Origin: Rhizophagus irregularis
Lineage: Eukaryota; Glomeromycota; Glomeromycetes; Glomerales; Glomeraceae
Assembly: GCF_026210795.1 (NCBI RefSeq)
Contig: NC_089442.1
Coordinates: forward strand, 1,984,001 to 2,048,000
Length of the DNA stretch: 64,000 nucleotides
Direction of reading: 5' to 3'
The notes beneath the pieces were generated by a model, which did not search any database, had not been told where the DNA came from, and saw nothing but the letters and a program-made list of their open reading frames with translations. This document shows positions 2,921 through 62,929 of this stretch, piece after piece. Both the position numbers and the translations under genes were made by a program. The first letter of the stretch is position 1. Every line of letters starts with the position of its first letter.

Positions 2921-3345
2921 TCTTTTTTAAAGAGGTTGAAAAATTTTGAATTGTAGAACTTTTAAATTTTGTAATGATGTACCAAATAAAAAATAAATTC
3001 ATATAATTAGTAGTTTCAAATAAACCATTTTTTTTATTGTTATTTTTAAATACCTTTCAATGTCTATATCAAGCTCTAATTCTGCTGAAATATAATTAGA
3101 TTCTAAAGCAGTTGAAAAATTTTGAATTGTAGAATTTAAATCCTGTGATGATAAACTAAACGAATAAATTTAATAAATTCAAATAATTAGTTACGTCATT
3201 TAAGAGCAAATTCTTTTTGTTTTTTGTTATTTTAAATACCTTTCGGTGTTTATATCAAACCCTAATTCTGCTGAGATATAGTTAGAATTTAAAGTAGTTG
3301 AATAATTTTGAACTGTAGAATTTAAATTTTGTGATGACAAACTAA
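2921..3345 (-). repeat. Tandem duplicated C-terminal exon-intron units
   Basis: Three consecutive units of about 186 bp, each looking like an exon plus an intron on the minus strand. Units at 3,240-3,341 and 3,054-3,155 each hold a 102-nt exon with a TTTAG-type acceptor and a GAAAG/GTATTT donor. They encode about 34 residues, with LSSQ-(N/D)LNST-(V/I)QN in the first half and NYISAEL-(G/E)-(F/L)DI in the second. Both are phase 2-2, so they can be joined or skipped without a frame change. The third unit (about 2,921-2,990) has a one-base shift and lost its acceptor AG. The motif resembles the C-terminal tail seen in many Rhizophagus TKL kinases (family memory). Confidence 0.65.
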
Positions 3346-8334: not shown

Positions 8335-9905
8335 ATGGGCAACATTTCTAGTAGCAATCCAAAGTACACTTCAGCAAGCAACAGCAGTTCATTCAGTTCA
8401 AGCAAGAGTCCAAACAACAGTACAAACAAAGGTTTAAGCAAAAGTACAAACGACGATTCAAGCAGTACAAACGATGGTTCAAGCGACGACGGTTCAAGCG
8501 ACAGTTCAAATGAAAGTTCAAGCGATAGTTCAAACAGTAGTTCAAGCGATATTATTCGATATAATGTAATCAAAGATAAATTAAAAGATGAGGAACTTGA
8601 TAAGTCACTTGAGTTGTACAAACGACAGCTTAAGCAAAAGTACAAACGACGGTTCAAGCGACAGTACAAACGACGATATAAAAGTGACAGTACAAACAAT
8701 GATTCAAGCGATAGTTCAAACGGCAGTGATATTAGTCAGTATAATGTAATCAAAGATAAACTAAACGATGAGGAACTTTGTGAGTCACTTGAGTTGTACG
8801 AACAACGATTCAAAAGCGACAGTACAAACAATGGTTCAATCGATAATATTGATTGATATAATATAATCAAAAATAAATTAAAAGTTGAAAAAATTTATAA
8901 TTCACTTGGGAAGGAGGAACTTAATAAATTGATACTTAGCCTCGGGGATGAAACAAGATTTTTAAATCGATATCTCAAGCTTGATGATAATCATTTGGAT
9001 AAAATAAATAGAGATTTGCAAAAATTAGATCGCCTTCAAGGAAATAATTTTATTCCAAGTGAGGAAGATGGGAGGGATTTGGTAAATGATCTATTGCGGC
9101 GCAGAAGGGAAACTGACAAATTTAATGTTTATTTGTTTATTGAAAAGCTTTCAGATAATCGTTCGGACAATTCATTTCTTCGATATTTAGCAAATTCTCT
9201 GTTTAGAAACAAATATGGAATGTTCCACGTTGGATTAGAGATAGATGGAATTGTCCTAGAATGGGGCACCGGTGACGCTGGTCCTCATCTTATTTATCCA
9301 AGAATCAATACAAATCGATTATATGAAAAGATTGCACATATTCGTATCAATTACGATTCAAATTTTGATCGAGAATTTATCTTTACATCGAATATTTTCT
9401 TGCAGAATTGGAAATATCATCTACATAATTTTTTGTCTGTCATCTTAGATATAATGAGAAAGTTAAAATCTTTTGCTATATGAGAATTGGTATTATGCCT
9501 TCTAATAAATTACAAATCATTGCACAAAAATGTGTTAATTGGAATAAGAATTTTTATTATAATCCAGTAAATCGTAATTGTCAACGTTTTATTGAAGAAA
9601 TACTCGAAACACTTGGTTTAAAATTTAATCCTGAAGGCGAGTTTAAAAGGTTTCTGGATAGAATTGTTGAGTATGCAGATGATAGATTCTTGTTCGAGGA
9701 TAGAGAGTTTCTTTCGAGACAAGAACTTGATCAATTTACTGATCAGAATTGGGATAAGATCACAAATGTTTGGGACAAAAAATTACTATTATGTTATTCA
9801 AATATGATGAATAATATGTACAAGTATAAATATGACGAAAAATGGGGTCCTATTAATAACAAAGAAAAATGGTTAGTAAGAGAATACGAACTAAGAACAG
9901 ATTAA
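8335..9905 (+). pseudogene. Copy 1 of MGN / permuted-papain-like family (disrupted)
   Basis: Related to the intact genes at 13,164 and 17,505. The start context AAAG/TAGTATGGGCAAC is shared. The frame opens MGNISSSN (myristoylation-type), followed by a Ser/Asn/Asp-rich tract. Three copies of a YNxIKxKL segment occur where the other copies have one. At 8,854 the conserved Trp codon TGG (SWY/TWY in the paralogues) is TGA. The frame then continues through SLGDETRFLNRYL, FHVGLEIDGIVLEWGTGDAG and YEKIAHIRINYDS to about 9,480, where one extra base relative to copy 3 gives a TGA. The last 140 residues (NCQRFIEEIL..., to REYELRTD) continue in the +1 frame. With both a nonsense and a frameshift change the gene is very probably dead, although the core is little eroded, implying recent loss. 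Its 3' flank matches the other copies. Confidence 0.85.
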
Positions 9906-15390: not shown

Positions 15391-17500
15391 TAGTATTATT
15401 AGAATGATGCCAGTTACTGGGAAGCAAAAAAAAAAAAAATTTTTTTTATAACCGGAACTAACTAAAACCACTAATATTTGTAAATGTCAGTTACCGAACA
15501 TAAAGAAAGGGCAAAGTCCGATCTATTGTTGGAAAAATTTTTTTTTAAAAAAATAAAAAAAAATTTCTAATGAAAAAAATCCGATCTGTTGTTAAAAAAA
15601 AATTTCTGAATATAAAAAAAAAATTTACTGAACGATCTATCGTTAAAAAAAAATAATTTGTTAAAAAAATAATAATAATAAAATTACTAAATGAAAAAAA
15701 AAATAAAAAATAAATGAAAGAAAGGCCTATTATTATGAGAGATACAATATGATTAAAAAAAAGAGATACAATATGGTCGAAAAAAAAATCATCATCAAAA
15801 AAAAATTTTACCGAAGCTGTTAAAAAAACGTCCCTCCGGCCTATTGTTATCGGGAGTAAAAAAAAATTTGAAAAAATGCTTACTAAAAATTTAAAACATT
15901 ACTAAGAAAAAATCGGGTATTAAAAAAGAAAATATTGATAATAATATAAAAGGAAAAGAATATCAGAAAATTACTAAAGAAATTATTATCGATAAATATA
16001 AAAAACATACTAAAACTAAAATAGAAAAAAAATCAGTAATAAGAAAATACTAAAAATACTAAAAAAATAAAATTCTTAGAATTTAATGGGAATAAACTAA
16101 AATCGGTTTTTAAAAACTATTTAGAAAAATAAATAGAAGATGTGTTATATCAATAGGAAAATCAATGTAAAATTTATTGTCACGAAAATCACGAAAAAAA
16201 AGAGTTATTACGGTATTATGGAATTAATGTTTGCAGATTCATTACAAAAAAAAATTCTGTACATAATTAATATGATTAAAAAATTTTATATCTCAAAAAA
16301 TTACATTATATCGATATATTGTTACAGAAAAGAAAATTTCCAATATACTGATCTGATCTATTACAAAAAAAATTCCTATTAAACACCGATCTATTGTTAC
16401 AAAAAAAAATACACTAACCCGGTTTATCGATCTGCTTTTAAAAAGAGTTAACATTAATTACTTATTATACTTTATTAGTATTAGCCAAAATGCCAGTTAC
16501 CGAAAAGCAAAAAAAAAATCGTTTTATTTAATTAAAGTGATCAAGTGATTTATTGTTATAATTACTAAAGACAGTGTAATGATCTATTTCTTATTAGTAT
16601 TAGTAATGGGAACTTTAAAAAAATTTTTTTGCGCATTAGTAATCAGATGAAATCTGCCGATCAAATTGCCCGAAAGAAGAACTATAAAATTATGGCATAG
16701 TCAGGTGCAGATGAATCACACGCTGCACAATTCAAAAATTATTTATACGGGTAATCTAAACGTCTCATTGCTACATCCTGCGATAAAAAAACTTAGACGT
16801 ATAAGAAAAAATGCATTAAAAAAAATTTAGCCGTAGCTTTAATATTACTAAATAAAGATAAGTAAGTAAGTAACAGCAACATTAGTAATCCGCCAATCAA
16901 CATCTTTTAATTATACAATCACAGGACAAATCAGGCGCAGGCATAATACACATTTCTTTATACAGTAATAACAAGAAAAATATTAATTATTAAGTAATTT
17001 TTTTACATAATATTATATAATAAAAACTATTTTCACGTTCACGAATAAATAATATTTTATTAATACATTTTATGAGTAAAAATGAGGTAATCATTTCTCA
17101 TGATGTAATGTTTATCAATATTCATTTTTTTTTTTTTTTTTTGAGAAAAATTATTTATAAGGTGCAAATTCGATAAAAAAGAGAAATAGGGGCCTACTCT
17201 ATAATCTATAATCAAATCAAGTAGGATTAAGATTAAGAATAAATTTATGAATCCATAATCATAATTATCTATATAATCTAAAATCTATAATAGAAGAATA
17301 TAAATTTTTCGAAGTTTTATTTTCCTAATTTGTCTAGTAAAATCTAACCAAAAAAGAATATACTGGGCAAGTGTTTCGATGATCATTTAGACACTACTCC
17401 ATAGAAATTATCTCTATTCGTACACTGTATTACATTTTTACAAAGTACAAAGCCAATACCAAATAGGAAGAAATCAGTAGCTGTTTTCTATACTACGATA
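15391..17500. other. Low-complexity A-rich region upstream of copy 3
   Basis: Dominated by A-runs. About 15,510-16,430 repeats a short phrase, CGATCTATTGTTA followed by poly-A, at least five times in diverged form, which looks like microsatellite-driven expansion of one seed. Two copies of the gene-family upstream motif are visible: TCAGGTGCAGATGAATCACA near 16,703 and TCAGGCGCAGGCATAATACA near 16,933. Confidence 0.4.
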
Positions 17501-17504
17501 AAGT

Positions 17505-18899
17505 ATGGGCAACTTATTTAGTAGTAGCACAAAGAGCACTTCAACAAGCAATAGTAATTCAAAGAGCTCTTCAACAAGCAACAGTAGTTCAAAGAGCACT
17601 CCAACGAGCAACAGTAGTTCAAAGAGCACTCCAACGAGCAACAGTAGTTCAAAGAGCACTCCAACGAGCAACAGTAGGTCAAAGAGCACTCCAGCAAGCA
17701 ACGGTTCAAACGATGGTTTAAACGACAATTCAAGCGACGACAATTCAAGCGACGACAATTCAAGCGACGATAGTTCAAGCGACGACAATTCAAGCGACGA
17801 CAATTCAAGCGACGACAGTTCAAGCGACTATAGTTTTATTAGTTGGTATATGAAAATTAAAGACAAATTAAAAGATGAAGAAATTTATAATTCACTTGGG
17901 AAGAAGAAACTTAATGAATTGATATTTAGTCTTGGAGATGAAACAAAATTTCTAGACCAGCATCTCAAACTCTTCTATGACGACGATCATTTGAATAAAA
18001 TAAATAGAGATTTGCGGCGATTAGATCGCCTTCAAGGAAATAATTTTATTCCAAGTGAGGAAGATGGGAGGGATTTGGTAAATGGTCTATTGCAACGCAG
18101 AAGAGAAGCTGACAAATTCAATGTTTATTTGTTTATTGAAAAGCTTTCAGATAATCGTTCAGACAGCTCATTTCTTCGATTTTTAGCAAATTATGTGTTT
18201 AAAAACAAATATGGAATGTTCCACGTTGGATTAGAGATAGATGGAATTGTTCTTGAATGGGGAACTGGTGATGCTGGTCCTCATCTTATTTATCCAAGGA
18301 TCAACACAAATAAAATATATGAGAAGATTGCACATATTCGTATCAATTACGATTCAAATTTTAGTCAAGAATTTAATCATTCAACTAATACTTTCTTGCA
18401 GGATTGGCAACACTATATGCAAAATTTATTTTCCACCATTATAAACTTTATGAGAATGTTACTATATTTTGTTTTGAAAATTGGCGTTGTTCCTTCTAAT
18501 AAATTACAAATCATTGCCCAAAAATGCGTTTATTGGAATAGGAATTATTATTATGATCCATTAAATCGTAATTGTCAACATTTTATTAATGAAATACTCG
18601 AAACACTTAATCTAAAATTCAATCCTAAAGGTGAATTTAAAAAGTTTTTGGATAGAATTGTTCAGTATGCGGATGATAGATACTTATTCCAAAGGAGAGA
18701 GTTCCTTTCAAGACAAGATCTCGATCAATTTGCTGATCAGAATTGGAATATGATTACAAATTCTTGGGACAAAAGATTACTTTTATGTTATTCGGATATG
18801 ATGAATAATATGTATGAGTATAAATATGACGAAAAATGGGGTCCTATGAATAACAAAGAAAAATGGATAGAAAGAGAATACGAACTAAGAACGGATTAA
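17505..18899 (+). CDS. Copy 3: predicted N-myristoylated permuted-papain-like protein with Ser/Asp repeats
   Basis: Intact frame of 464 residues. It starts MGNLFSSST (Gly2/Ser6 myristoylation consensus). Residues ~6-65 are six 10-residue repeats of type SNSSSKSTPT, and residues ~75-109 are seven 5-residue repeats SSDDN/SSDDS, giving a flexible, strongly acidic linker. Then WYMKIKDKLKDEE, LSLGDETKFLDQHL, LDRLQGNNFIPSEEDGRDL, FHVGLEIDGIVLEWGTGDAG, an ~20-residue hydrophobic/amphipathic stretch, NRNCQHFINEIL, and the conserved tail ending REYELRTD. Candidate catalytic residues are the His of FHVGLE and Cys of RNCQHF (inference from permuted papain-fold enzymes). It keeps the Trp that is a stop in copy 1 and the frame that is shifted there. 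Upstream context ATAAAGTATGGGCAAC is shared with the paralogues. Confidence 0.85.
   Translation: MGNLFSSSTKSTSTSNSNSKSSSTSNSSSKSTPTSNSSSKSTPTSNSSSKSTPTSNSRSKSTPASNGSNDGLNDNSSDDNSSDDNSSDDSSSDDNSSDDNSSDDSSSDYSFISWYMKIKDKLKDEEIYNSLGKKKLNELIFSLGDETKFLDQHLKLFYDDDHLNKINRDLRRLDRLQGNNFIPSEEDGRDLVNGLLQRRREADKFNVYLFIEKLSDNRSDSSFLRFLANYVFKNKYGMFHVGLEIDGIVLEWGTGDAGPHLIYPRINTNKIYEKIAHIRINYDSNFSQEFNHSTNTFLQDWQHYMQNLFSTIINFMRMLLYFVLKIGVVPSNKLQIIAQKCVYWNRNYYYDPLNRNCQHFINEILETLNLKFNPKGEFKKFLDRIVQYADDRYLFQRREFLSRQDLDQFADQNWNMITNSWDKRLLLCYSDMMNNMYEYKYDEKWGPMNNKEKWIEREYELRTD
17521..17700 (+). repeat. Coding 30-bp minisatellite (six units)
   Basis: Six head-to-tail 30-bp units, three of them identical (ACAGTAGTTCAAAGAGCACT followed by CCAACGAGCA), the first two and last slightly diverged. 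They encode the Ser/Asn/Lys/Thr decapeptide repeats of copy 3. Confidence 0.9.
17727..17831 (+). repeat. Coding 15-bp minisatellite (seven units)
   Basis: Seven units of AATTCAAGCGACGAC or one/two-base variants (AGTT..., ...GAT, ...TAT) encoding SSDD(N/S). Related sequence also occurs in the corresponding part of copy 1, so the seed predates the duplication. Confidence 0.9.
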
Positions 18900-21938: not shown

Positions 21939-23569
21939 ATGAAAAATTTTGTCGTTTTATTATTCTTGATTAATGTATCATTCGTATCCGGCACTCCAAC
22001 TCTATGCAATGTGACATTAGTTCAAAGCAATGACACATTAGTTCAAAGCAATGACACATTATTAGTTCAAAGCGTTTCACGTGTTGCATTCGCAAATTAT
22101 TTATCCTTCTCAGGTGGTTTACTTTTGACTTTCTTCTCAAATCCTTCCAAATATGATAAAACTCCCTTTGCCATATTGAAAAGATTTTTAATACGAACTG
22201 CAGTTATACAATTAATGGCAGTTTTGATTCTTATGACTTTCATGACGAACAGATTCTTCAAGTTGAATGGTTTCGCAATGCCTGAATTACTTAGATCAAG
22301 TTCTATCGCCATGTATGTTTTCTGCGCTGCTGTGATTGTTTTAACACAGTGTATAGTAGATAAATATAATCGCAATGTAACTCGAGCCATATTTTTTGTT
22401 CCCATCTACGTTATTCAAATGATTTTTCAAGTCTACATGAAATTCAATCATCCATCTTCTGGATACATGCTTGTATTTCAATCGATTAGCATTTTTTCTC
22501 TATTATTTGCCATTCCATTGTCTTGTATCCTATATTGTTTTGAAGAAGAACATGCAATTAAAAAATTATTATACATTCTTATATATCCTTATGTATTTCA
22601 AACATATCTGCACATTGGATATATATCTTTTTTTTTATATTGCGATGAAGGTTATTTATCGTCAGCGTTGTTGTTATCCGGCAGTTTTTCATTGGGTAAT
22701 GTTCTTCATAGTGCTTATTACTTGATCTTCCCAAGAAAAAAATGTAAAGCTGTTCCAGACAAAGATAATAATTATAACAACATTCCCAATAACGGTGACC
22801 CTGCCACTTATGCGTACAGGGCTAAGGCATTGTATGACTGTACGTACATTTAAAAAAAAAAAATAATATTTCCTTTTGAAGAGAGAGGCTAATGAGTATC
22901 TTTGCATTGCTTATTAGACGAAGCGAATCCGGATGACAATAATGAGCTGTCATTCTCTAAAAAAGAAACCCTTAAAATTGCTGATTATAAGGGTAAATGG
23001 TGGCAAGCAATGAAAGCAGATGGTAATGTTGGAATAGCACCAAGTAATTACGTAAGTTCGCATTTCTGAAGATTATTATTGATGCATTTGATGTTCTAAC
23101 ATCATATAATATCTAGCTGCAAATTAAACCAAGGGAAAACTGGGAAGATGTCCCTGTCAAAGACGATAATGATGTTAGTAACACGGTTCCCGCTAACAAT
23201 GAATATACACGGAGAGCAAAGGCGTTGCTTGATTGTACGTTCAAAAAAACATTTGTATTTTCTTATGAGCAAAGGACTTAAGACAGAAGTGCTATATTCA
23301 GAGCGAGTAAAATAGAACGCTTACATTCTCTGCACTATTTTAGATGACGCAGATCCGAATGACAATAGTGAGCTTTCATTCTCTAAAGGAGAAATCCTTG
23401 AAATTGCTGATCATAATGGTAGGTGGTGGCAAGCAAAAAATGTCGATGGAGAAACTGGAATAGCACCAAGCAATTATGTAAGTTTATAACCCAAGTTTTT
23501 TTATGAATATTTTTGGGAAACTAACGTCCTTCCATCACATTACATCATAAAAAGCTACGACTCGTCTAA
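21939..23569 (+). CDS. Multi-pass membrane protein with two C-terminal SH3 domains
   Basis: Inferred join 21939..22839, 22918..23051, 23117..23234, 23344..23477, 23555..23569 (433 residues; phases 1/0/1/0 agree at every junction, stop TAA 23,567). Signal peptide [18 protein letters not shown], a short lumenal repeat with NDT glycosylation sequons (LVQSNDT x2), then about six hydrophobic segments, e.g. [17 protein letters not shown]3-1: the first intron splits the codon of the second Tyr in ALYDY, then [32 protein letters not shown]3-2: [36 protein letters not shown]. Both keep the ALYDY-like, WW and PSNY ligand-pocket residues. The architecture recalls the fungal osmosensor Sho1 (membrane segments plus C-terminal SH3 recruiting a MAPK scaffold), but the signal peptide, extra membrane spans and second SH3 differ, so orthology is not claimed. 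Confidence 0.8.
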
Positions 23570-55139: not shown

Positions 55140-57132
55140 AAAGTTTATTGTAGTCACATGAGCAAATGTTTATCCTTGCGCTTTTGTCTAAATTATTCGA
55201 ATGAATAATTATACAATATGTGAATATTAATTGTACAGATAGTATAGATAGAATATAAAACTATAAATTATAATATTATAAAAGATTTTACTTGAATTGA
55301 TCTTTAATTTCGGTTTATTTTATTTTATTTTATTTATTTTTTTTTTGTGGCAATTTACGCTATGCAAGGCGTATATTATTACAGTAATCAATTAATAACA
55401 ACGAAATTTAACACTATTTAAAATTATATTACATTAACCAGTTAAAAGGTTCAATTATTATTTAATGAAAATTTATTTAATTCGTCGGTATTATCGTGAC
55501 ATACTTAATATTTTTATTCCGAGTTATTAAGATATTTATTAAGTATCTTAAACTTAATATATATATTTATCACCTGGCTACTAATTGGTATTTAGGATTT
55601 TTTCCGCCAGTTATAAACTGGCGGACCAATTAGTATATCTAGGATGATAAAAAAGTTATTTACTGATCTAGTTTAGTATATAAATGGGTTATCATCCGAA
55701 AAAAATTATTTATTTATTGTAAACAAATAATTGATAAACAAATAAAAAAGGATAATCACATGAAATTGGTAATAGTTACAGCTGGTAAAATTTTTTTTTT
55801 TAAAATCTCGTTTGCAAAATAATTATTATTTTTACCAATATTATCAGTTATATGTATGTGGATATTTACATATACAGAAAATTTGATTGTTTTGATTATT
55901 ATTGTTTATTCAATTCAGTATACTTATAATCAGTTATATGTAAATTTCCAATTAGATTTAAGAAGAAAAATATTTAATTGCTTTTTTATATAAAAAAAAC
56001 AGTAGTCAAATAATATTAATAAAAGAAGAAAAAAATTTAAAAAGAAAAAAAAAATATTAATATTAGTAATCAAAAATCAGGAATTCACAGTCTCTAGCAT
56101 TATTTCTTATCCCACAATTTTTGAAAAAAAAAAAATATAAATATAAGTACCAGTTGACTGTATGGGTGGATGTCCCCCAGCATTACCCACAAATTTTCAC
56201 CTATATATATAAAACTTAATTTTAGCCTGAATTGTCAAGCATTTATTTATTAAAATTTGAAAATATTTTTATAATTAAACAATTCATGATTTTACCGATC
56301 AGTGGAGCAACATTTTTGCTGATCACTAATTAAATTTGGAAAATTGCAGAAATTAGACATTAGAAACCCGATTTATTTATATTTGTAAAAAGGAGATGGC
56401 TGAAATTCACATGTAATACCGTAACTACACACCTTAATTGGAGTGCTTTTTTTATAACTTTATATTTTATTTCAAAATTTTTTAATAGTGAAAAGCATAG
56501 CATAGCGGACATGCTTTTATCACTTTGCTGATCATTCATCAATCATATAATATATCATGTCACATAATTTTGAAGATACGGTTAAAGCCATAAAATGCTG
56601 GGCCAAACTATATATACTAATGTTTTTTTAGCAGTATAATTTATGAAAAATAAAAAAATATATATTGTCAAAGTTAACCTTAAACCAAAATTTTCAATAA
56701 TTAGATAACTGTTTAAAGAATTTTTTTGATAAATTTAATATGCAGTAAATTTAAATGAATGTTAAATTGTCTATATAAAATTATTATTATGTAGGATTTT
56801 CAATCAAAGTAATTATAGCGAAGTGACAAATGATTGACAAAATTGTGATAAAGTAAAAATAAATGATAATCATTTCATTGGTGCTTAATAATCACCTAAG
56901 ATGAAATGATTAATCAGTTACTGCGATTTTGTAATAATTGATCTACATTCCAGTTTGTTTGTCATATACGCAATGATGCAATGCTTGTACTTGTGATCAA
57001 CGCTTTTGCACATAATGTATTTTGCATAAATATTATTACCATATTTATTACTAATAAAGGCGCTCAATAAAAAAAAAAAATATTTACTTTATCTTTTCCA
57101 GTTGGGGAGAATTTGAGAATTTTGATATAGTA
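55140..57132. other. Intergenic and 5' flank of third kinase
   Basis: AT-rich, no gene. A perfect hairpin CCGCCAGTT-ATA-AACTGGCGG lies at 55,604-55,624 within a larger imperfect inverted repeat (TACTAATTGGTAT ... ACCAATTAGTATA). At 56,590 TAAAATGCTGGGCCAAACTA resembles 10,108. Just before the kinase start, TTATCTTTTCCAG at 57,089-57,101 is a good splice acceptor, and from 57,102 the frame is open into the ATG at 57,133 (WGEFENFDIV), so an upstream exon may exist. Confidence 0.4.
55604..55624. repeat. Perfect 9-bp-stem hairpin
   Basis: CCGCCAGTT, loop ATA, AACTGGCGG; GC-rich island in A/T surroundings, with a second outer inverted pair about 12-15 bp away. Possibly the remnant of a small palindromic element. 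Confidence 0.6.
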
Positions 57133-60100
57133 ATGGACCAACGTATTGAAGGTATATCAAATAAGCTGAAATATTAAGTTTTTATTTATAAACAATTCAT
57201 GTTTAATATTTTACATAATTCAACTAATTATATTCTTAATTTAAATAACTAGATTGTAAGTAATATATATAATTTACAGTAAATGCATTTTATATTGTCT
57301 TTATATTAACTAATTAATAATTAATAATACTATAGGGTGTAAGTTATATGATATCTATATTTGTATTATTTATATAATTTAAACTAACTAATTTCTTTAT
57401 TTAAAAAATTATTAAATAATATAGGGAGTAGTAAGTTATTTATTTAATTCTATTATTACTTATTGTTATAATATTTACATATAATTTAAACTATCTAATT
57501 TCTTTATTTAAAAAATTATTTTGTAATTTATTTAGCTGGTAAGTCATAAGTTATTTATTTAATTCTATTATTACTTATTGTTATAATATTTACATATAAT
57601 TTAAACTATCTAATTTCTTTATTTAAAAAATTATTAAATAATATAGCGCGTAAGTTATTTATTTAATTCTATTATTACTTATTGTTATAATATTTACATA
57701 TAATTTAAACTATCTAATTTCTTTATTTAAAAAATTATTTTGTAATTTATTTAGCTGGTAAGTCATAAGTTATTTATTTAATTCTATTATTACTTATTGT
57801 TATAATATTTACATATAATTTAAACTATCTAATTTCTTTATTTAAAAAATTATTAAATAATATAGCGCGTAAGTTATTTATTTAATTCTATTATTACTTA
57901 TTGTTATAATATTTACATATAATTTAAACTATCTAATTTCTTTATTTAAAAAATTATTTCGTAGATGGTAAGTTGTTTATTTAATTCTATTATTACTTAT
58001 TGTTATAATATTTACATATAATTTAAACTATCTAATTTCTTTATTTAAAAAATTATTAAATAATATAGCGTGTAAGTTATTTATTTAATTCTATTATTAC
58101 TTATTGTTATAATATTTACATATAATTTAAACTATCTAATTTCTTTATTTAAAAAATTATTTTGTAATTTATTTAGTTGGTAAGTCATAAGTTGTTTATT
58201 TAATTCTATTATTACTTATTGTTATAATATTTACATATAATTTAAACTATCTAATTTCTTTATTTAAAAAATTATTAAATAATATAGCGCGTAAGTTATT
58301 TATTTAATTCTATTATTACTTATTGTTATAATATTTACATATAATTTAAACTATCTAATTTCTTTATTTAAAAAATTATTTTGTAATTTATTTAGTTGGT
58401 AAGTCATAAGTTGTTTATTTAATTCTATTATTACTTATTGTTATAATATTTACATATAATTTAAACTATCTAATTTCTTTATTTAAAAAATTATTAAATA
58501 ATATAGCGCGTAAGTTATTTATTTAATTCTATTATTACTTATTGTTATAATATTTACATATAATTTAAACTATCTAATTTCTTTATTTATTTAATAGATC
58601 GTAAGTTATAAGTTATTTATTTAATTCTATTATTACTTATTGTTATAATATTTACATATAATTTAAACTATCTAATTTCTTTATTTATTTAATAGATCGT
58701 AAGTTATAAATTATTTATTTAATTCTATTATTACTTATTGTTATAATATTTACATATAATTTAAACTATCTAATTTCTTTATTTAAAAAATTATTAAATA
58801 ATATAGGGGGTAAGTTATTTATTTAATTCTATTATTACTTATTGTTATAATATTTACATATAATTTAAACTATCTAATTTCTTTATTTAAAAAATTATTT
58901 CGTAGATGGTAAGTTGTTTATTTAATTCTATTATTACTTATTGTTATAATATTTACATATAATTTAAACTATCTAATTTCTTTATTTATTTAATAGATTG
59001 TAAGTTATAAATTATTTATTTAATTCTATTATTACTTATTGTTATAATATTTACATATAATTTAAACTATCTAATTTCTTTATTTAAAAAATTATTTCGT
59101 AGATGGTAAGTTGTTTATTTAATTCTATTATTACTTATTGTTATAATATTTACATATAATTTAAACTATCTAATTTCTTTATTTATTTAATAGATCGTAA
59201 GTTATAAATTATTTATTTAATTCTATTATTACTTATTGTTATAATATTTACATATAATTTAAACTATCTAATTTCTTTATTTATTTAATAGATCGTAAGT
59301 TATAAATTATTTATTTAATTCTATTATTACTTATTGTTATAATATTTACATATAATTTAAACTATCTAATTTCTTTATTTAAAAAATTATTTTGTAATTT
59401 ATTTAGCTGGTAAGTCATAAGTTGTTTATTTAATTCTATTATTACTTATTGTTATAATATTTACATATAATTTAAACTATCTAATTTCTTTATTTAAAAA
59501 ATTATTAAATAATATAGCATGTAAGTTATTTATTTAATTCTATTATTACTTATTGTTATAATATTTACATATAATTTAAACTATCTAATTTCTTTATTTA
59601 AAAAATTATTTCGTAGATGGTAAGTTGTTTATTTAATTCTATTATTACTTATTGTTATAATATTTACATATAATTTAAACTATCTAATTTCTTTATTTAT
59701 TTAATAGATCGTAAGTTATAAATTATTTATTTAATTCTATTATTACTTATTGTTATAATATTTACATATAATTTAAACTATCTAATTTCTTTATTTATTT
59801 AATAGATCGTAAGTTATAAATTATTTATTTAATTCTATTATTACTTATTGTTATAATATTTACATATAATTTAAACTATCTAATTTCTTTATTTAAAAAA
59901 TTATTTTGTAATTTATTTAGCTGGTAAGTCATAAGTTGTTTATTTAATTCTATTATTACTTATTGTTATAATATTTACATATAATTTAAACTATCTAATT
60001 TCTTTATTTAAAAAATTATTAAATAATATAGCATGTAAGTTATTTATTTAATTCTATTATTACTTATTGTTATAATATTTACATATAATTTAAACTATCT

Positions 60101-61895
60101 AATTTCTTTATTTAAAAAATTATTTCGTAGATGGTAAGTTGTTTATTTAATTCTATTATTACTTATTGTTATAATATTTACATATAATTTAAACTATCTA
60201 ATTTCTTTATTTATTTAATAGATCGTAAGTTATAAATTATTTATTTAATTCTATTATTACTTATTGTTATAATATTTACATATAATTTAAACTATCTAAT
60301 TTCTTTATTTATTTAATAGATCGTAAGTTATAAATTATTTATTTAATTCTATTATTACTTATTGTTATAATATTTACATATAATTTAAACTAATTTCTTT
60401 ATTTAAAAAATTATTATGATCTAGCTTGTAAGTATCTCTATTGTTATATATTTATATAATATTTATTTGTTAATTAAATTCTTTTATTTAAAAAATTATC
60501 TATTACTTTAGTTGGTAAGTTGTAAATTATAGGTTATTATGTATTTATCCAAAAACTAAGACTTATATTACATTAAATTCCTATTTAAATTTTAGAGTAA
60601 GTAATAATTTATTTTAGTGTAAATTATAATACAATCTATAATAAAATTTTAATTATTTAAATTTATAGATTTGGAAAAAGTGGAAATACAATTATAGATG
60701 ATTTTATTCTTGAAAAAAAATTAAGATGGATTCCTTATAACAAATTTAAAAATGTTGAATATCTTAAAGAAGGAGGATTTGGTGCTATATACAAAGCTAT
60801 TTGGTTAAAGAATGATGGAGATGAAAAAGAAGTAATTCTTAAATGTCCCAAGAATTTAAATGAAAATTTAAATGAATTTTTGAAAGAAGTATGATAGATT
60901 GATAGTATATTATTTTTTTATTTTTATAATTTATATTAATTAATTATTATTAATTTTTGTAGTGGGACTATCATAAGAATTGTTTAAATTCATCAATTGA
61001 TATTGTAAATTTTTATGGATTTACAAAAGATCCAAAAATTTCAAAATATGCGGTAGTAATGGCTTATGCAAATAATGGTAATTTAAGAGAAAATTTAACA
61101 AGAATAGTCAAAAATAATTGGAATCAAAAATTATATATGTTGTACAGAATTATTACTGGACTTAGTAGAATACATAAAAAAAATCTTATTCATTGTGATT
61201 TTCATGATGGTAATATTTTAAATCATGATGAGAATATAATTTATATTAGTGATTTAGGATTATGTCAACCTGTAAAATCGTTTTTGGAAAAGTATGATAT
61301 TTATGGTGTTATACCATTTATGGCTCCTGAAGTTTTAAGAGGCAAATCTTATACTCCAGCTAGTGATATATATAGTTTTTCTATGATTATGTGGGAATTT
61401 ACATCTGGAGTACCACCATTTAATGATAGAGCACATGATATTCAACTTACTTTAAGTATTTGTAAAGATGGTGAACGTCCTGAAATTATTGAAAATACTC
61501 CACAATGTTATGTAGATTTAATGAAAAGATGTTGGAATGAAGATCCATTAAAAAGACCATCTTCTAAAGAAGTATTGGAAATTATTGACAAATGGATTTC
61601 CCGTCCTAATGAAGTCAATGATGAATTAAAAAGCAACATTATGGAATTTATAAATGCACCAATTGGGCAGTATAACAATCTTGTTACTCAATCTCATCCT
61701 AAAGCATATTATACAAGTCGTTTACTTGATTTTACTAGTAAAAAATTGAATGAAATACTTGAAAGTAGAGATTTACAAGCTTATTATTCAAGTCAATCTA
61801 CTAGTGAAAAAGTAAATGAAATTCTTGAAAGTGAGGATTCACAAGCTGAAGATTTGGATGATTGTATAGTTAATTTGAAGTCATTAGGTATGTAA
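57133..61895 (+). CDS. TKL-type protein kinase with intron/micro-exon array
   Basis: Secure coding parts: 60669..60888 and 60963..61895. Proposed first exon: 57133..57151 (MDQRIE, donor GTATATC). Between them lies the array at 57,253-60,668 (separate entry). After the array comes FGKSGNTIIDDFI, the usual (W)xSGNxxIDxFI linker of this class, then WIPYNKFKNVEYL, glycine loop KEGGFGAIYKAIW, Lys in VILKCP, catalytic loop HCDFHDGN (catalytic Asp kept; the Arg of HRD is Cys), DLG, APEVLRG and the Arg of the C-lobe in DPLKRPSS. The C-terminal tail contains a duplicated segment (LNEILESRDLQAYYSSQST / VNEILESEDSQA). The kinase looks catalytically competent. If all candidate micro-exons are used the protein is 424 residues; taking the whole array as one intron joins the outer exons out of frame. 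The upstream start is the least certain part. Confidence 0.8.
57253..60668 (+). repeat. Tandem array of ~33 intron-like units separated by 3-nt micro-exons
   Basis: Each ~80-110-bp unit begins GTAAGT, carries a near-invariant core (TTTAATTCTATTATTACTTA then TTGTTATAATATTTACATAT), a branch-site-like CTATCTAATTTCTTT, and ends in AG. Between AG and the next GTAAGT are exactly 3 nt in 32 of 34 places: ATC 8, ATG 5, CTG 4, CGC 4, TTG 3, CAT 2, ATT 2, and GGT, GGG, CGT, CTT once each. One junction near 57,425 has 6 nt and one near 60,595 has 1 nt. Three end-types alternate (TTTATTTAG-CTG, AATAATATAG-CGC, TTTAATAG-ATC/TTCGTAG-ATG), and a five-unit block (CTG CAT ATG ATC ATC) is itself duplicated with a period of about 524 bp (59,407 and 59,931). 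Units 1-2 and the last three are more diverged than the middle. Confidence 0.9.
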
Positions 61896-62929
61896 TATAG
61901 TATATAAAGAAAATTGTTCTTACAAATTATTTATGTGAAATTAATTTATTTAATATTTGAACTTAGATATTAAAACAGATGAAAATTAACTAGTCATTGT
62001 TTGTTTTTAAAAAAATTTATAGTTTTTAAGTGATATTTGATATTATACATTTAAAAGAAATTTTATTTTATTCTTTTTAGATTTATTTAAACATTAAGAC
62101 TAGAGTAGTAAAATATTTTATAAGTTTCTTAGTTTGTAATTTAAATAATTCCTTTTTTTTTCTTTTTTTATTATACTTATAATTATTTAAACACTAAGAC
62201 TAGAGTAGTAAAATATTTACAAGTTTCTTAGTTTGTAATTTAAATAAATCTTTTTTTTATAACTTTTTCAATTATGAGATATAAATTATCAAAATAATAA
62301 TATAAAACCATTTCCAATGATAATGGATAGGCCAACAGCCTAACACTAACCATTTAATGATCTGTTTGATCACATGTTCGTACATAGATCTAAGAAGCGT
62401 CGCGTAGAAGAAAAAAATCAAGAAAAATAATTATAGAAGCGTCATGTATTACGGGCTAAGATCCGAATTTTGTACTTGTTTTCTTTGTATAAAAACGTCA
62501 TCATGTATTCCCCAAACCTTTGTATAGCGTAATAAAAATTTTTACAACGATCGACTGATCGTGATAAAGAGGTGTATAGTTGGACCCATAATAACGCATC
62601 CAATAAAATTTGTTTATTTTAAAATAAAATAATTTTTTTTTGGTATGTATATTTAGTAAAATCTTAACATAATTTGATAGTTATTAACCTAAACTATAAA
62701 ATGACGTTGAGATTATTTCAGTTGAACATCTATATCAAAAGTTATTAGCTTTCAAAGTTCAAGTACTTTATTAATATATTAAAAGAAGGATTTGAAACAT
62801 ATAATTCTGGCCGGAATTTCCAAAATTCTATAATGCGGGCCAGATTTAAGATATGTATCGTTACACAAATAACTTGTATTTAAGTTTCGAAAAATTTTTC
62901 ACACGACGTTGATCTTAATTTTTTTTATT
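61896..62929. other. 3' flank of third kinase and intergenic
   Basis: A direct repeat of about 65 bp, AGACTAGAGTAGTAAAATAT then TT..AAGTTTCTTAGTTTGTAA, occurs at 62,096-62,155 and 62,197-62,250. A less AT-rich stretch at 62,330-62,600 has an AGAAGCGTC motif twice. At 62,800-62,850 TTCTGGCC and ATTCTATAATGCGGGCCAG form a small hairpin related to the centres of the MITEs at 50.5 and 53.6 kb. Confidence 0.4.

Follow-up and report, generated by a model that had tools for sequence, protein, structure and literature searches.

Arrays of probable single-codon exons upstream of a protein-kinase gene family in Rhizophagus irregularis

A stretch of 64,000 nucleotides (nt) from the glomeromycete fungus Rhizophagus irregularis (assembly GCF_026210795.1, contig NC_089442.1, positions 1,984,001 to 2,048,000; hereafter the window, numbered from its first letter) contains a predicted protein-kinase gene whose 5' portion is divided into a tandem series of intron-like units separated by exons of almost always 3 nt. 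A preliminary description had proposed an array of about 34 micro-exons here, nearly all of that length, and the junctions bear it out. The donor hexamer GTAAGT occurs 34 times within 57256-60597, with TAG and exactly 3 nt directly before 32 of the 34. The motif TAGNNNGTAAGT is found at 32 places in the 64-kilobase (kb) window, all inside the array, with none elsewhere and none on the opposite strand, and AGNNNGTAAGT has one extra window place outside the array, at 16861. The two odd gaps are one of 6 nt (GGAGTA, 57425-57430), in which GTA is duplicated at the donor, and one of 1 nt (A, 60596). Gaps of 6 nt with the form NNNGTA also precede GTAAGT at G000:C2:702883, C19:3474187, and C24:1598059, the duplicated GTA leaving two possible donors 3 nt apart.

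The gene model for the window (Table 1) has 37 exons, among them 32 of 3 nt, one of 6 nt, and one of 1 nt, separated by introns of 72-112 nt, and comprises 1275 nt including the stop codon, or 424 residues. The predicted spliced product matches the kinase domain PF07714 at residues 70-320 (Pfam, E 1.8e-42). The array would contribute 35 residues, DWWSTAPAHAFALAHHRDDYDHPAYDHPAYDHPFE, placed between those of the ATG exon and the kinase; an example of a predicted peptide is DYDHPAYDHPAYDHPFEFGK. Higher-order periods of about 197, 219, and 422 bp were detected in the array by Tandem Repeats Finder (TRF). The same program reports a 99-bp unit nearly twice in tandem at 62083-62268, just downstream of the kinase gene, and short-period repeats at separate places in the window (8395-8848, 17523-17828, and 22006-22061), some with TTCAAGCGACA-like related units.

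Table 1. Features of the micro-exon array and kinase gene in the window.
Feature	Position in window	Strand	Remarks
First coding exon, ATGGACCAACGTATTGAAG	57133-57151	+	Encodes MDQRIE and ends, in phase 1, with one base of the following codon; donor GTATAT at 57152
Intron 1, 101 nt, GTATAT...TAG	57152-57252	+	Window gene model
Conserved 5' micro-exons ATT (57253-57255) and GGT (57336-57338), including their intron	57253-57338	+	GGT comes immediately after ATT, close to the 5' end, in 27 of the 30 lists
Interior of the array, with 28 micro-exons of 3 nt and one of 6 nt (57425-57430), 29 in total	57425-60322	+	Separated by 88-112-nt GTAAGT...TAG introns
Conserved 3' micro-exon CTT	60425-60427	+	
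Conserved 3' micro-exon TTG	60512-60514	+	
1-nt exon A (TTTTAG-A-GTAAGT)	60596	+	Middle base of a Glu codon
First kinase exon, begins FGKSGNTIIDDFILEKKLRWIPYNKF	60669-60888	+	Phase 2 start
Second kinase exon, ends at stop	60963-61895	+	

The array is not confined to the window. Over the whole assembly (146,748,485 bases, 32 contigs), the junction TAG-N3-GTAAGTTATTTATT occurs at 883 + 941 = 1824 places and its reversed-pattern control at none. The same junction is found at 5 places with an N2 gap (reversed control 0) and at 2 with an N4 gap (reversed control 1), so that among genome-wide gaps of 2-4 nt 1824 of 1831 are exactly 3 nt. The genome-wide counts cover gaps of 2-15 nt. Gaps of 4-15 nt gave 33 rows; by eye, another TAG lies 3 nt ahead of the donor in nine of these, a second donor follows a 3-nt gap in five, a duplicated GTA has lengthened a 3-nt gap in four, and the remaining 15 are of other kinds. 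A 26-mer from the intron core has 968 + 1167 = 2135 places within 2 mismatches (control 0), and the first kinase exon has at least 151 genome matches. The terminal 1-nt-exon motif lies at 81 exact places on 27 contigs, and within 2 mismatches at 174 places vs. 74 for its reversed control. Judged by the 81 exact end motifs and the 151 kinase exons, arrays of this kind probably number around a hundred in the genome. When the first 100 junction rows were set against the kinase-exon matches listed, several TAG-N3-GTAAGTTATTTATT places were without a nearby listed kinase exon (G000:C1:1937442-1937632, C1:2292053-2293961, C1:4551031-4552637, C1:7918336, and C2:19526-23271); these may be unlisted paralogues or arrays in other genes.

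Thirty arrays on 17 contigs were parsed: the window array, nine picked by the repeat alone, and 20 picked by kinase-exon score. Set against at least 151 kinase exons in this one assembly, the sample leans toward genes closely related to that of the window; L001-L008, being fragments of L009-L011, were excluded from the counts. All 30 arrays, including the nine picked by the repeat alone, lie upstream of a kinase exon and in the same sense, and they hold 16-59 micro-exons each. Across them 871 GTAAGT donors have TAG or CAG at most 9 nt upstream, with a gap of 3 in 831 and of 1 in 27. Internal 1-nt gaps were rejected as an artefact of counting from the nearest AG, being in fact AGA triplets (TAG-AGA-GTAAGT). 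In the assembled exon chains 861 of 901 gaps are of 3 nt and 2 of 901 of 0 nt, and all 30 chains end in a 1-nt exon, A. Because the script that builds the chains favours 3-nt exons and scores GTAAGT highest, exon-length counts and frame closure are biased in that direction; the window and genome-wide junction counts are free of that bias. Of the 861 three-nt exons, 831 have T or G at the middle base of the triplet (the third position of the codon), a bias that could reflect a splice constraint or an origin from few founder units. In six loci (L009, L010, L013, L014, L015, and L017) additional exons of ordinary type separate the ATG exon from the array and encode EEFEGSGT-like repeats; those of L010 keep phase 1 (by eye).

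GTAAGT is the donor after 845 of 901 micro-exons, but after none of the 20 ATG exons. A group of 842 introns covers 53-121 nt in 51 distinct lengths, with residues modulo 3 of 300/252/290; the length of the intron is free while the gap stays at 3, which argues that selection acts on the gap. Introns longer than 125 nt (29 of 871, spread over 18 of the 30 loci) probably hide units with other donors. A branch-site-like CTAAT motif had been described for every unit in the window. Across the 30 arrays CTAAY is found, as a raw frequency, in 681 of the 842 introns of at most 125 nt, with its branch A at a median of 32 nt from the intron 3' end.

Frame closure, like the anatomy above, can be read from the DNA itself. 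A motif search recovered the ATG exon in 20 of 30 loci, ending in phase 1 in 20 of 20, while the kinase exon starts in phase 2, one base before [FY]G.S, in 30 of 30; a single long intron between the two would consequently break the frame. The total length of the micro-exons is 1 modulo 3 in 27 of 30 loci, and the array is both closed and stop-free in 25 of 30. Among the 12 chains in which no intron exceeds 125 nt, 10 close and 8 of these are also stop-free. The 1-nt exon, together with the final base of the micro-exon before it and the first base of the kinase exon, spells GAA in 28 loci, GAG in one, and AAA in one, and thereby specifies Glu in 29 of 30. In the window, joining exon 1 straight to the kinase exon puts the kinase out of frame, as does dropping the 1-nt exon, and the unspliced reading meets a stop after 14 residues. 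One clean intron of 3.5 kb, the outcome that the preliminary description had named as fatal to it, would thus leave the kinase out of frame. An intron-borne satellite, that is, a tandem repeat within one intron of about 3.5 kb that is removed whole with its splice-like signals as passive hitchhikers, would suit the tandem and AT-rich layout, the higher-order periods, and the variable exon number (16-59). This reading is nonetheless very unlikely: exon 1 and kinase do not join in frame in the window, nor, judged by phase, in the 20 loci whose ATG exon was located; the 3-nt spacing is kept 1824 to 7; and it leaves unexplained an avoidance of stop codons that is restricted to neighbouring units.

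This avoidance is the decisive test of the present analysis. In the predicted frame (phase 1) each codon takes its first base from the end of one triplet and its other two from the start of the triplet that follows, across an intron of about 100 nt. Neighbour pairs in which both exons are of 3 nt and the intron is at most 125 nt (n = 792, the 29 of 871 longer introns being dropped) yield 2 stops, vs. 17.9 ± 3.3 when triplets are shuffled within arrays, and none of 5000 shuffles was as low. The wrong frame (phase 2) has 131 stops vs. 98.9 in shuffles, with no avoidance, and whole triplets (phase 0) include 6 stops. A triplet beginning AG, AA, or GA follows a T-ending triplet in 2/245 cases vs. 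53/547 otherwise (p = 4.5e-7). The comparison gives 2/207 vs. 44/406 (p = 1.1e-6) with each pair taken once per array, 2/95 vs. 38/220 (p = 6.7e-5) with equal pairs that have similar introns merged over all loci, and 2/72 vs. 37/199 (p = 6e-4) with pair types only; because the paralogues are related, these p-values are approximate even with duplicates removed. There is no depletion at lags +2 (15/208 vs. 36/519, p = 0.87), +3 (10/187 vs. 34/482), or +4 (18/178 vs. 25/436), or at lags -1 (21/229 vs. 33/563) and -2 (14/208 vs. 38/519). Stops are avoided across introns, between downstream neighbours and in the predicted frame only. Such a one-directional neighbour rule argues for splicing and translation of the triplets, and no other reason for it was seen. 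The units are most likely single-codon exons that are spliced in order and translated, and of the options offered in the preliminary description, that of a gene with dozens of 3-nt exons is the one favoured by frame closure and by stop avoidance at lag +1 alone.

Two other modes of splicing bear on the same evidence. In combinatorial alternative splicing, subsets of the symmetric cassette units would be skipped to give many N-termini in the style of the Schistosoma micro-exon genes (MEG). The 3-nt exons do have phase 1-1, and any skip would remain in frame provided that the 1-nt exon stays; the codons created by a one-unit skip, however, are those at lag +2, which are not purged of stops, and skipped forms are consequently under no visible selection. 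This makes combinatorial splicing unlikely and argues that single-unit skipping matters little, low-level skipping being compatible with the data. Nested or stepwise splicing, of the stwintron or recursive kind, was a further option of the preliminary description and would discard the triplets along with the introns. Abutting acceptors and donors do resemble recursive sites, and 0-nt gaps occur twice in the 30 chains, but zero-length exons are not characteristic of the arrays (2/901 vs. 861/901 for 3 nt, in chains that prefer 3 nt). Nested splicing also predicts no codon relation between neighbouring triplets, whereas the relation found requires the triplets in the messenger RNA (mRNA). It is not needed, finds no support, and is highly improbable.

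Several observations, besides the relatedness of the paralogues, weigh against the interpretation of the units as single-codon exons. Five of the 30 loci do not conform: L012, L027, and L035 fail to close, owing to 0-, 2- or 4-nt gaps, and L011 and L014 have one in-frame stop each. All five have a stop-free stretch of 293-305 residues downstream (294-305 in L012, L027, and L035), and they may be pseudogenes, assembly errors, or misparsed loci. L017 was frameshifted by a 2-nt gap in a first parse, a gap that the second parse omits; the array of L016 is open, yet TGA lies inside its first kinase exon (G000:C6:1478097-1478312); and the chain of L034 starts inside its array. At least one intron longer than 125 nt, the mark of an incomplete parse, is present in 18 of 30 chains. 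The script preference for 3-nt exons tilts the frame-closure counts, and 20 of the 30 loci were selected by kinase-exon score.

An error of assembly or polishing in a long AT-rich repeat is a further candidate cause. Nanopore-based assemblies err in such repeats, and a few of the 2-nt gaps might be errors of this sort. As an account of the whole, it is barely credible, given 30 arrays over 17 contigs with differing unit numbers and triplets, most of them frame-consistent. A non-coding host gene with tandem introns carrying small RNAs, as in the 48 SNORD115 introns of SNHG14, might be suggested by the strong conservation of the intron core (2135 places within 2 mismatches vs. control 0). Within 57000-60900 Rfam gave no match up to E = 5, the predicted folds of six introns are no more stable than those of shuffled sequences (z 0.19 to 0.91), and the exons are under coding constraint and lead into a kinase, which together render this explanation extremely unlikely.

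Very probably, the micro-exons are genuine and mostly constitutive parts of a protein-kinase gene, spliced in order and translated. In the window 32 exons of 3 nt, one of 6 nt, and the terminal one of 1 nt, 103 nt in all, would be joined in order into the mRNA. We infer that the spliceosome takes out each intron of about 100 nt in turn, by intron definition; the perfect GTAAGT donor, a match to U1, may make up for the absent exon context, and sequential removal would avoid a clash of factors on the two sides of a 3-nt exon.

The arrays differ among loci in unit number and triplets. Similarity of interior introns (7-mer Jaccard) is 0.48 inside an array and only slightly lower, 0.38, between arrays; last introns are conserved between loci (0.32) but share little with interior ones (0.05). 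At the 3' end the array reads ...FE in 22 of the 25 open loci. Intron resemblance has the pattern expected of an array that grows in the middle between fixed ends. Tandem multiplication of an intron together with its codon, also raised in the preliminary description, is the likely route of growth, in keeping with the likeness of interior but not terminal introns and with the TRF periods. Unequal exchange between introns that resemble each other may both multiply and remove the unit of one codon and one intron. Since a unit always contributes exactly 3 nt in constant phase (1-1), length and sequence can change without damage to the frame. Over the 300 pairs of the 25 open loci, median identity is 0.18 in the array interior vs. 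0.84 in the first 70 residues of the kinase exon; for the 30 pairs of these loci whose kinase exons are at least 90% identical the array-interior median is 0.19. These array identities are raw values, lowered somewhat by incomplete chains. The predicted array peptides are hypervariable. Tentatively, the tandem repeat could be regarded as a codon satellite, one codon plus one intron, with which the kinase family might lengthen, shorten, and rewrite a segment residue by residue with the frame kept, as an inbuilt source of variation for a recognition surface. In purpose it would resemble the hypervariable repeats of fungal incompatibility receptors.

If this interpretation is correct, almost every codon in runs of up to 59 consecutive micro-exons is followed by an intron in the 30 genes read, and we know of no denser splitting of coding sequence. 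It bears on the minimal exon size that the spliceosome handles in series, on intron multiplication that is local and frame-safe, and on how genes generate variation. In the literature searched (open-licence papers, among the matches listed), Rhizophagus micro-exons or arrays of 3-nt exons are not apparent. Known cases include micro-exon genes (Schistosoma MEG, aphid bicycle) and isolated exons of 1 nt; dozens of single-codon exons with repeat-like introns across a gene family are likewise not apparent there. The repeats of the SP7 effector, as far as the excerpts available go, are of another kind than the array. For its expression tracks, the genome study of R. irregularis DAOM197198 aligned Nanopore RNA using minimap2 -ax map-ont, with introns capped at 3000 (PMC10234402), settings that are expected not to place 3-nt exons. 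Such genes are likely misannotated because ordinary aligners, in the accounts excerpted, struggle with very small exons.

Known systems, as represented in excerpts of the papers cited, share some features with the arrays described here, which combine very short exons between canonical splice sites with the kinase domain PF07714 and keep the frame in one phase (27/30 totals of 1 modulo 3, phase 1 start in 20/20 found, phase 2 end in 30/30). Schistosoma MEG contain many small exons of 3-81 bp (PMC10526429) and resemble the arrays in having them within a multigene family. They encode secreted trematode proteins and have long introns of up to 5 kb, whereas here the exons are nearly uniformly of 3 nt, the product is a fungal kinase, and the introns are of about 100 nt (53-121 nt in 842 of 871) and related as tandem repeats. 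Aphid bicycle genes have about 17 exons on average, with one gene exceeding 100 micro-exons, and their internal exons start with codon position 2 (PMC9168663). The likeness to bicycle and megacycle genes lies in a rapidly evolving family with small internal exons nearly all in one phase: the 3-nt exons here follow one carried base (phase 1) and hence also start with codon position 2, although the kinase exons do not. Single-codon exons with a tandem intron array are not described for bicycle genes in the excerpts of that work, and bicycle proteins are putative gall effectors, not kinases. Micro-exons of 1 nt occur in plant APC11 and VPS55 and in Fusarium CYP621A, where they are kept across relatives and required for the frame (PMC8831610, PMC12940212), and those of plant VPS55 have conserved GTRAGT donors (PMC8831610). 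The frame-needed 1-nt exon and GTRAGT-type donor are much as here, but the known examples are isolated, while here the 1-nt exon terminates a series of 3-nt exons at every one of the 30 loci read. Dozens of tandem introns are also present in SNHG14/SNORD115 (PMC11608373). Those introns carry small nucleolar RNAs, whereas here no Rfam family (window array) or stable fold (six introns) was found. Finally, introners, sister introns, and stwintrons are similar introns that have multiplied as dispersed insertions into many genes. The arrays resemble introners and stwintrons as cases of intron multiplication, but here the multiplication would be local and include a codon.

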